Origin: Scenedesmus sp. ARA3
Lineage: Eukaryota; Chlorophyta; Chlorophyceae; Sphaeropleales; Scenedesmaceae
Reading direction: 5' to 3'
Assembly: GCA_004335835.1 (NCBI GenBank)
Contig: RWJK01001429.1
Coordinates: 120,798 to 184,797 of the forward strand
DNA length: 64,000 nt
The stretch's first letter is position 1, and each line of letters begins with the position of its first letter. Of the stretch, positions 32,523 to 36,472 are shown in pieces. The position numbers were made by a program, and so were the translations under genes. The notes under the pieces were generated by a model. It was not told where the DNA came from. It searched no databases and worked only from the letters and a program-made list of their open reading frames with translations.

Positions 32523-35500
32523 TTAGTGGCTGTTGGCTGCCTCCTGCTTCAGGTGCTGCCGCTGCCGCCTGTACTCGCTTTGATAGCGCTGCAGGGTATC
32601 CCGGATCTCCTGATACTCCTCGTCAAGCATGCTGCCCGGCTGCTGCCGTAGCGGGCTGCCGCCCGGCCCTGCTGCTGCTACTGCTGCCGCATCCTGCACC
32701 TGCTGCGCATGCGCTGCCTGCTGCTGCTGTTGCTGCGCTGGTGCATCCTGCCAGGCTGCCAGCCGTGTTGGCTTTAGGTTGTCGTTGCTGCCACGCAGGG
32801 CACTATCATGCACGACATCCTCAGCAGCAGCTGCCGCACAGCCCTGGCTGAGTAGCTGCTTGCTGGCGCTGTCAGGCCGGCTGTGTGACAAAGCCTTGCC
32901 AGGGCTCCCCAGCCCAGGGCTGACGACCACGCCGACAGCAGCATCAGCCGGCAGTGCTGCTGCTGCTGCTGCTGCTGCTGCTGACAACGAGCCAGCAGCT
33001 GCGGGAATGCCAACAGCTGATGTGTCGCTGCCAGTGCTGTTGATGGTGCTAGCAGCAGTGATCGTAAGACTGGCACCATCACTTGATACTACAGCAGGCT
33101 CTGCTGCTACTGTGGTGATGCTGTGCGGCTGCGCCTGCAGCCGCTGCTCCCAGTTGACCTGCACCGTCTGCAGCGCGCTGGGCTGTGCTGCTGCAGCATG
33201 TGCCGGCTGCGTGTGCCGGTCCCAGTCCCAGCTGCGCGGCTGCAGCGAGCTCAGCGAGCTGAGGCCTAAACCCGGCGCTGACTGCGGCCGCCGCGCCTTG
33301 CCGGAACGCTGCTGCTGCTGTTGCTGCTGCAGCAGCTGCTGCAGCTGCTGGTGCTGCTGCTGCTGCCGCGCGTGCTGGGAAGCAGATGCCCCGGAGTGCC
33401 CAGCTGCAGGCGGCACGACAGGCCCCAAGCTGCATCCGCTCATGTCTGTGCTTGCGGAGCACAGCAGCACCTCTCGCGCAGCAGCCAGGTGCTGCGAGCC
33501 CAGGCTGATGTTGCTGGCCAGGCTGAAGGTGGTGCTGGTGGTGCACAGCGCCTCGCGCACACACGACTTGGTGTGCAGCTGCTGCTGCTGCTGAGAGTCG
33601 TCGCTTGCGCGCGGCGGCTGCCGCAGCTGCTGCTGCTGCTGGCTGTCTAGGCTGCTGTGGCTGGCCGCTTGCAGCTGCTGCTGCTTCTGCTGCTGCAGCG
33701 GTGCGCAAGCCACGCTCTGCGAGGTGTTGAGCACGTCTGCAGCAGCAGCCGCAGGTGTCAGCGTGACCACCGCCTTGGACACCTGCTGCTCCTCCTGCTG
33801 CCTCCTGCCAGCTGCTGCTGGCGCCTTGTCCTGCTGCCGCTGCTGCTGCTTCTGCTGCATGATGTGCGCCTTGGTTGCTACTAGCGACAGGTGCACCTTG
33901 AACTCCCTGCCTGCTGGATCTACAGGCAGCCAGGGCTCCTGTAGCACCCTGTAGTGGCAGCCCAGCACCACGCCACTGCCCAGAGGGGTGCTAGCAGGAA
34001 GCACGCAGCTGCGCGGGTGCAGCGCCTGCAGCATGCTGACGGAGTCGCCAGCGCTGGTGCACATGTAGCTGCTGGTGGCCGCGGTGTTGTCGCTGCCGCA
34101 GCCGATCGCTGCTGCCGCTGGCGGCTGCTGGAGGGCAGCTGCGGTGAGGGCAAAAGCCTGCTCGTACGCCTGCGGAGAAGTACGCAGCAGCACAGGACTA
34201 GTGAGCGGGCAGCACTCACATACATGTCACACGACAGAGCAGTAAGATCCTGCGTGTAGGCATCATCAGTGTGCTGCCAATGTCAGCAGAGCAACGGGCG
34301 AAACACTGCTATGGCAGCACTGCGAGCATGCCAAGGCTGCTGCTGTGCGCTGCTGCACCACTCACCCCGCCTGTGCTGTACTGCGCTGCTGCTGCCGCCA
34401 TGGACTTCTTGGTGCTCTTGAGCCACTTGGACAGCACAGACGCTGCCGGCAGCTGCGCCACGTTGGCCATGTCGGTGCTGCCAAAGCCCAGGTAGGCCGC
34501 ACGCACTGCTCGCAGCTGGTCGGGCAGCGGCTTCCTGCAGGCAGCAGCAGCAGCAGCAGCAGCAGCGTGATAAGCTGTAAGCAGTAGCACACTGCGCACC
34601 CGCACGTCCACACACAGACACTGGAGCCCACCAAGCAAGACGCTGCAATACCTGCCGCATGAGCATGCATAGCAAGAACATGGGCATCTGCATCTTCAGG
34701 CCACCTGCCGGAGCAGCCCCTCCCTCAACGCAACTTCAACTGCTGATGCTGCCCGACATCTGACGGCTGCACCTGCTGTTGCTGCTGCTGAACCCTACTT
34801 CTGCTGCTGCTGCTGCTGGTGCGCACTTGTACTTTGTGCGTATGGGTACCAGGTATGCTCCTGCGTTGCTGGGCTCCGTCACAAAGTCAAAGGTGATGAG
34901 CTGGAAGTCATCATCAACCAGCACGCGGTTGTTGGCGGGGTCGGCCACCACTGACGCCCAGCCGCGGCTGCTCACACCCAGCTTGATGCCCTGGCAGCAG
35001 CAACAGCAGCAAGCATAGCAAAGTACAGCGGTTGGCGGCAGTTGATCACAGAGCTTTGCCTGCCGGCTGCTGCTGCTGTCACACCCAGTGGCGCGTGCCT
35101 CTGCTGCCTGCCAGCTGCTGCCGCGTGGTCAGTCCGCCCCAGCGCCCAGCCAGCGCCAGCTGCCCTGCTGCTGGCTGCCAGCTGCTGCAGCTGACATGCA
35201 GAGCCACCGCCAGCACTCCCTGCCAGCCCTGCACGCTGCTTCCTGGCCATGCTGCACAGCCCGCAACGGAGCAGCTGCTGCTTAGGCCTGGCTGCTGCTG
35301 AGTAATCCTTATCAGCATCTGTGCCGGCTGCCTGCTGCTGCCACTGCTGGGCTCACCCTGCTGTACAGCTCCCACAGCAGCAGCCCCGCAGGCGTGGGCA
35401 GCACCTCAATGGTGCCCCACAGCTCGTTGCCGCGCCAGTGCACCTCCAGCACCTGGTGGCTCACGTTGGGCAGGTTGAGGCTGCGGAAGTAGGCGCTGTA

Positions 35501-36472
35501 GTAGCTGGGGTGGTTGAGCTCGCCCAGCGCGCTGCCGCAGGACACGTGCGCCGCCTTGAAGCGGGCCACCTCGCGCCGCAGGATGGGCTGGCGCAGTATC
35601 GGCAGCAGCAGCAGCAGGAGCAGCAGGAGCAGGCAAGTTTCCAATCACATGTGCTTGTCAAAGCGGAGTGCAGCCTAGGCTACGGAGGACAAAGCTGAGA
35701 GGAAGATAGATGGCAGCCACGCCAGGCGCTTGCGTGGCGGCCATCTATCTGAGGAGATTGCCAGCAGGGCGGCAGCGGTGCACGTGCACAGCTGCCGATT
35801 TGTGTGGCGCTGTATGCTTGCATGGCAGCTGCTTGCTGGCAAATGAGGCGCTGACCGCCAGGTGCTGTTGCTGCTGCTGCTGCTGCTCACCTTGGGGTAG
35901 ATGCGGCCGTTTGTATTCTTGGTGTCTGCTCTGGCAAACAGACCTGCAGCAGCAGAGCAGTATCGTGGGGCTGCTATATCCCAACACGCTGTGCATGCCA
36001 CGTAGGGTGCTGATTGACATGTTGCTAGCAGCGCCCAAACCGTGATGTTGTCAGCATAGCCTGATGAGCACTTCTACCTGCTCACCATGTACAATCAACC
36101 TGCCCTCATTGACCTTGGTGCTGAGAGTAAAGAGATCCACGACCTGGCAAGGTCATGCAGACAGCAGCAGCAAGGAGGAGCTATCTTACAGTTGCTGCAC
36201 GTGAACAGCAGTAGGCTCAAATGCCAAATAGCAGATATTGCACACCACGCTTTCAACCAAACAATTGCTTGGGAGCAGTGCATCAGCAGGCACATACCTC
36301 CTCCCTGGTCAGCTCAGCAGCAGAAGTGCCCAAGCGACCTCCGCAGCACCACCCCCAAAACGCCATAGCAAAGTGGTTCGACAAACTAAGACATCTTGAC
36401 TGCTTGGAAGGTGGTGCTAGAGATGGCGAGGCCGGTGAATCGGCACAAGCCCTCCCGGCTATGCGCGCCCAT
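32523..36472 (-). CDS. T4-type prohead core protease-like protein with Gln-rich tail
   Basis: Seven exons, 36472-36401, 36143-36086, 35943-35891, 35587-35357, 34990-34833, 34534-34366 and 34169-32523, join in phase to about 795 residues. Residues 25-190 carry the landmarks of phage T4 gp21-like prohead proteases (S77-type serine peptidases): GRLIVHGLFARAD, NTNGRIYPKPILRREV, GELNHPS with the candidate catalytic His (about 87), GTIEVLPTPAG, GIKLGVSSRGWASV with the candidate Ser (about 146), and DDDFQLITFDFVTEPSNAGA. In phages this enzyme cleaves scaffold and capsid proteins. Residues 250-795 are Gln/Ala/Ser-rich with few folded-looking parts. Exon 1 is the least sure (donor GTCAAG). Capsid genes are not seen nearby. 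The native role is unknown. Confidence 0.8.

Follow-up and report, generated by a model that had tools for sequence, protein, structure and literature searches.

The stretch of DNA analysed here, which we refer to as the window, comprises 64,000 nucleotides of contig RWJK01001429.1 (assembly GCA_004335835.1) from the green alga Scenedesmus sp. ARA3. An earlier note, made from the sequence of this stretch alone, had proposed that it encodes a captured viral protease resembling the prohead protease gp21 of phage T4, in a spliced nuclear gene retained by the alga. The gene in question lies on the minus strand, runs from an ATG at 36366 to a stop at 32523, and is predicted from the genomic sequence to consist of seven exons (Table 1). 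All introns are GT-AG, their phases are 0,1,0,0,2,0, and the exons join in frame, bearing out the perfect phase claimed for them. The five peptides that had drawn attention to the gene (GRIYP, GELNHPS, LPTPAG, GVSSRGWASV, and FDFVTEPSNAGA) are encoded on this strand in the order given, all within the first 248 residues. The upper limit of the gene had to be revised, however. The ATG at 36472 lies in another frame, which is closed after 28 codons, and the start is most likely at 36366 (MAFWGWCC), since both the Tetradesmus obliquus model P0121 (P numbers denote the proteins compared) and the transcript-labelled relative P0007 begin with MAFWG.

P0121, encoded on an 11.1 Mb contig, is identical to the window protein over residues 1-283, save for a Lys33/Gln difference, which marks the source of the window as T. 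obliquus or a strain near it. After residue 283 this public model departs from exon 7, which counts against exon 7 running on to its stop. In support of the continuation, a block that we call the HY module recurs in P0006 and P0122, and the terminal helix motif is common to other algal proteins. P0121 (OEZ86_011538) instead fuses the protease exons to leucine-rich-repeat sequence, which is probably an annotation merge with a downstream gene. When the protein was used as a query against its own genome (87.27 Mb in 1567 contigs), six exon matches were found, all belonging to the gene described here, and a second copy did not appear among the best candidates scored. In the same genome the S77 profile stayed silent where the protein query succeeded, which presumably reflects the shortness of the exons.

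The predicted protein matched the Pfam family Peptidase_S77 (PF03420) over residues 38-186 (E = 1.1e-18; 67.8 bits against a curated cut-off of 27), the head maturation protease phrog_207 of PHROGs (E = 1.2e-41), and T4 gp21 (PDB 5jbl; E = 4.4e-10), the latter being the sole PDB sequence match at E <= 1. The strength of these matches excludes chance as the source of the motifs. An NCBIfam search gave no match. The gp21 fold was found in the predicted structures of the relatives P0001 and P0005, which represent the window protein here, so that the proposed kinship with phage prohead proteases held up in both profile and structure comparisons. The distance from His86 to Ser144/145 is 58/59 residues, in agreement with the approximately 59 noted before, and the triad of His86, Ser144, and Asp172, matched by position to 5jbl, is invariant in 24 of 24 aligned rows. 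Domesticated enzymes often lose catalysis, and the protease activity of the algal protein is predicted from its sequence; the protein might have kept the fold and the oligomer in a structural or regulatory role that involves no cutting. The invariant triad argues against this, as do the motifs around it, which are among the best-conserved stretches, and we consider such a role unlikely. Rather, profile, relative's structure, and phylogeny (see below) support the identification of the window gene as an S77 prohead protease that has kept its catalytic residues and its introns.

Table 1. Features of the S77 gene in the window (all on the minus strand).
Feature	Position	Sequence or motif	Remarks
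Exon 1	36298..36366	MAFWGWCCGGRLGTSAAELTREE	Cys7-Cys8 codons at 36343-36348, candidate lipid-anchor stretch
Exon 2	36086..36143	VVDLFTLSTKVNEGRLIVHG	3' boundary at residue 43, where homology of 14 other predicted proteins starts
Exon 3	35891..35943	LFARADTKNTNGRIYPK	Boundary lies 2-3 residues from the start of homology (62-63) in two other algal models
Exon 4	35357..35587	GELNHPS ... LPTPAG ... WELYSR	Catalytic His86 codon at 35510-35512; 3' boundary at residue 137, where homology of 10 other proteins ends
Exon 5	34827..34990	GVSSRGWASV ... FDFVTEPSNAGA	Catalytic Ser144 codon at 34970-34972, Asp172 codon at 34886-34888
Exon 6	34366..34534		Linker 3' of the protease domain, partly conserved
Exon 7	32523..34169		Includes the stop codon; low-complexity tail, HY module, and C-terminal helix
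HY module	33849..33971	VVLGCHYRVLQEPWLPVDPAGREFKVHLSLVATKAH...	Recurs in Chlorophyceae; without Pfam match
C-terminal helix motif	32526..32618	EYQEIRDTLQRYQSEYRRQRQHLKQE...	In the window protein and 8 of 18 other algal proteins tried

A captured maturation protease could conceivably act as an antiviral effector that prematurely cuts the shell or scaffold of HK97-type double-stranded DNA viruses entering the cell, such as mirusviruses. The fold is indeed related to that of herpesvirus maturation proteases, although these gave no sequence match at E <= 1 and have His as the third catalytic residue, where the algal enzyme has Asp. The ancestral substrates also fit such a role: PMC9958956 describes T4 gp21 as pentameric, with a catalytic centre that stays blocked by the N-terminal region until nine residues are, as is supposed, removed by self-cleavage, after which the enzyme digests the scaffold and trims the capsid. 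Arguing against an antiviral function are the single copy found in the genome and the good conservation of the domain across the algal clade. In addition, PADLOC returned no families for the three members tried (P0125, P0014, and P0001), which carries little weight, as it covers anti-phage systems. We regard defence as an improbable function.

The gene is not peculiar to Scenedesmus sp. ARA3, as relatives were found in at least 20 named species, all of them Chlorophyta. Six are Chlamydomonas (C. reinhardtii, C. schloesseri, C. incerta, C. eustigma with two genes, C. sp. UWO 241, and C. euryale), while other matches came from Tetradesmus obliquus, Monoraphidium, Volvox carteri, V. africanus, Pleodorina, Gonium, Astrephomene, Edaphochlamys, Tetrabaena, and Dunaliella. 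Ostreobium and Tetraselmis chuii also matched, as did, by their labels, Tetraselmis striata and Ulva. A separate branch within the algal clade consists of metagenomic and MMETSP sequences; we call it prasinophyte-like from its position in the tree. Among the matches listed there was no streptophyte, trebouxiophyte, or other non-chlorophyte eukaryote name; as two of the three match lists comprised the best 120 of 190 and the best 120 of 1567 (7997 candidates having been scored for the latter), absence from a taxon is weak evidence. The two C. eustigma proteins, P0005 and P0011, are diverged, carry consecutive gene numbers (g3178 and g3177), and come from contigs of equal length; they are likely the result of a tandem duplication. 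The Tetrabaena socialis protein P0148 is the sole named algal model lacking a recognisable catalytic Ser motif, due either to a broken model or to a real loss. N-termini of the MGC.C type and the absence of Trebouxiophyceae by name prompted the idea of a link to cilia, which was dropped, as there were too few taxon names to test it.

The relationship to phage proteins was analysed in two trees of hand-chosen rows. Tree 1 contained 34 algal and 62 phage rows (96); for tree 2, 25 rows were dropped (long branches and near-duplicates, including the algal P0034, P0202, and P0003) and 18 viral rows were added, giving 31 algal and 58 phage rows (89). The algal rows formed one side of a branch in tree 1 (support 100/100; 100% of 200 bootstrap trees) and stayed together in tree 2, which was rooted on T4-like phages (99/97; 99% of 200 bootstrap trees), on which grounds several separate captures were rejected. 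In tree 2 the algal clade was united with 46 phage rows, made up of the Mel-JY01 group and its IMG/VR kin, with a support of 100/99 and to the exclusion of Kyanoviridae and T4. The head-maturation protease of Microcystis phage Mel-JY01 (phrog_207) was also the best named match, at 48% over 78% of P0001 and 52% over 42% of P0187. Within the algal clade, the branching order is prasinophyte-like, Tetraselmis, Ulva, and Chlorophyceae, which broadly fits the order of chlorophyte lineages expected under vertical descent; the ulvophyte Ostreobium was placed among the Chlorophyceae on a long branch. Several S77 proteins of 565-601 amino acids that are probably from phages (P0150, P0152, P0154, P0156-P0158, P0165, P0167, and P0171) have precomputed domains that include PF14528, PF14890, or PF07591 within the head protease, which we take to be intein or homing-endonuclease families.

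Intron positions were compared across 122 proteins by means of the points where homology breaks off in gene predictions, rather than in the genomic DNA of those algae, and the rows counted include some phages (P0152, P0156, P0157, and P0159). Of 58 homology starts, 26 coincided with introns of the window gene, as did 10 of 22 ends, while the six start positions concerned make up approximately 4% of the stretch. Next to the 14 starts at residue 43 (intron 2) and the 10 ends at 137 (intron 4), 10 proteins start at 135-137, also at intron 4, and 2 at 62-63, near intron 3. These breaks indicate indirectly that intron positions are shared across the algae. The residue-43 group includes the prasinophyte-like P0017, P0189, and P0192 and, on visual inspection, also the closely related P0188, P0194, and P0201, suggesting that intron 2 probably dates back to the base of the algal clade. 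Together with the structure of the clade, the shared positions led us to reject a recent transfer. In the algal transcripts or models P0007, P0028, and P0137 (the last judged by eye), homology is lost or extra sequence is inserted exactly at intron 4.

Several features set the algal proteins apart from T4 gp21 (MEROPS S77), with which they share the core and the triad: a 5-residue insertion, an SRGW motif, a Cys-rich N-terminus, the HY module, and the C-terminal helix. Domains carrying a Trp downstream of the catalytic Ser motif were classed as algal-type. In all 35 full-length domains of this class, the spacer from the catalytic His to the SH motif measures 16 residues, against 11 in 159 and 12 in 2 of the 177 other domains, with the pattern unmatched in the remaining 16. 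Of the 21 named algal models, 20 have this Trp following SRG or SRS, and P0148 falls outside the motif pattern altogether. At least one Cys occurs within the first 20 residues of 36 of 38 algal N-termini, and at least two in 34, P0135 (which begins inside the domain) and P0186 having none; P0024, with three Cys and Gly2, was left out of the 38 because its domain start was unmatched by the pattern. By comparison, 163 of the 177 phage-type rows have no Cys there, 9 have one, and 5 have two or more. N-termini that start with MG and Cys, such as MGCACS, fit N-myristoylation and palmitoylation, and the N-terminal Cys cluster is a probable lipid anchor, predicted from its motif. The HY module, which gave no match in Pfam, has near-invariant His-Tyr, Arg, His, and Ala-His positions. 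Several of the proteins tried that lack the terminal helix motif are truncated models, and in the predicted structure of P0005 a long C-terminal helix spans residues 383-430. The Mel-JY01 type differs in that its gene lies between the portal and major head protein genes and its product has a spacer of 11, no SRGW, and no N-terminal Cys pair.

These signatures also bear on the route of entry, for which the earlier note had raised a giant virus or an organelle ancestor. Algae host giant viruses, and the phage giving the best named match infects a cyanobacterium, both of which could fit an indirect arrival, by way of a giant virus or the plastid ancestor. The algal Trp was found in none of 159 domain open reading frames of IMG/VR, however (from two scans, with the best 80 loci taken from each), and the 19 matches to algal-type patterns in a collection of bacterial and archaeal genomes encoded no relative. 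A plastid origin further predicts, unless they were lost, copies in red algae, glaucophytes, or streptophytes, and no such name was among the matches listed. We found no support for either route and consider both doubtful, which leaves direct capture from a phage as the preferred origin.

Profile, relative's structure, and phylogeny agree on capture from a tailed phage, in line with the captured viral protease of the earlier note. On balance, we therefore favour, with some reservation, the reading that this is a domesticated tailed-phage head-maturation protease, captured by an early chlorophyte and now serving as a membrane-tethered, self-activating serine endopeptidase. An early chlorophyte would have taken up a T4-like gp21 gene from a phage near the present Mel-JY01 type. 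The gene may then have gained its introns, an N-terminal Cys pair (with Gly2 in several species), the 5 additional residues in the spacer from the catalytic His to the next SH motif, the Trp downstream of the catalytic Ser motif, and the C-terminal module, and have been inherited vertically from then on. As for activity, lipidation, self-activation, and substrate, we infer a serine endopeptidase (Ser144-His86-Asp172) that palmitoylation, alone or together with myristoylation, most likely anchors to a membrane on its cytosolic side. By analogy with T4 gp21, the zymogen would probably be inactive until oligomerisation by clustering and self-cleavage near the N-terminus, upon which it would cut one or a few cellular substrates.

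A number of observations weigh against this reading. The two trees disagree on which phages are sister to the algal clade, these being a group of P0226, P0243, and P0258 in tree 1 (92/44) and the phage side in tree 2 (90/12), and tree 2 gave a long-branch warning at the root. Homology breaks fall off the window-gene introns in 32 of 58 starts and 12 of 22 ends, including 6 starts at 97, 5 at 105, 4 at 31, and 4 ends at 87; the five at 105 perhaps mark an intron without counterpart in the window gene. Gly2 is present in only 8 of 38 algal N-termini (for example MGCACS and MGCFSCS), and myristoylation is therefore not general. No trebouxiophyte or streptophyte name was among the matches listed, suggesting that loss may be tolerated in some lineages. 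Lastly, profiles of the T4 Gp23 capsid protein and portal were silent in the alga's own genome, in a search that read single exons and also missed the S77 gene; in a positive control, both profiles matched in 2 of 2 phage records.

Among the matches listed from the open-access literature searched, only PMC8643629 (2021) ties S77 to a green alga: in its excerpted text, the survey gives one sentence on presence, reporting S77 in Chlamydomonas but not in Arabidopsis, with role information lacking, and mentions no phage ancestry, breadth, or anchor. That entry belongs to the same family, and the C. reinhardtii protein P0125 falls within the algal clade. While presence in this one alga was thus already known, the single old capture, the likely phage source, the shared introns, the anchor, and the C-terminal module are new as far as the literature searched shows. 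Phage structural-maturation enzymes are unexpected as conserved proteins of eukaryotic cells, and this well-supported case of phage-to-eukaryote gene transfer concerns a protease that chlorophytes apparently kept, catalytic residues included, over much of their radiation, and to which a probable lipid anchor was added. As C. reinhardtii carries the gene, the role of a capsid-maturation protease in a capsid-free cell is directly testable. It is tempting, if speculative and rather unlikely, to imagine that chlorophytes keep the assembly-and-maturation principle of the phage, with a membrane-tethered, oligomer-activated protease processing a self-assembling cellular coat or scaffold, and the HY module and the C-terminal helix serving as newly acquired docking parts. 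If so, a eukaryotic maturation step would have been borrowed from capsid assembly.

The neighbours of the gene are ordinary cellular genes. Pfam matches among the 20 open reading frames scanned in the window were to a pseudouridine synthase, ribosomal protein L13, a leucine-rich repeat, and a neutral ceramidase; no head genes were recognised beside the spliced, nuclear gene, another difference from T4 gp21, and it does not lie between portal and major capsid genes. The phage relatives at two loci (L103 and L007) are instead part of a T4-type head block of portal, protease, and major head protein. A phage head protein query against the alga's own genome, run without a control of its own, gave no match. 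Phage contamination and a fortuitous alignment of motifs are both regarded as refuted: nothing was found in their favour, and contamination is contradicted by the six in-phase introns (as the earlier note had argued), the copy on the 11.1 Mb T. obliquus contig, the relatives in 20 named algae, and the ordinary cellular neighbours.

Rfam and tRNA scans of the window gave nothing. Intron 3 of the S77 gene contains a 22-bp inverted repeat (window positions 35704-35750), 91% complementary and with a 3-base loop, whose only matches in the genome are its own site and its own other arm. The neutral ceramidase exons lie at 39037-43587 on the plus strand, with a 33-base tandem repeat at 42504-42644 inside their span. 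Elsewhere in the window, a (TGC)31 run is present at 30318-30410 and a tandem repeat of 51-52 bases at 341-662.
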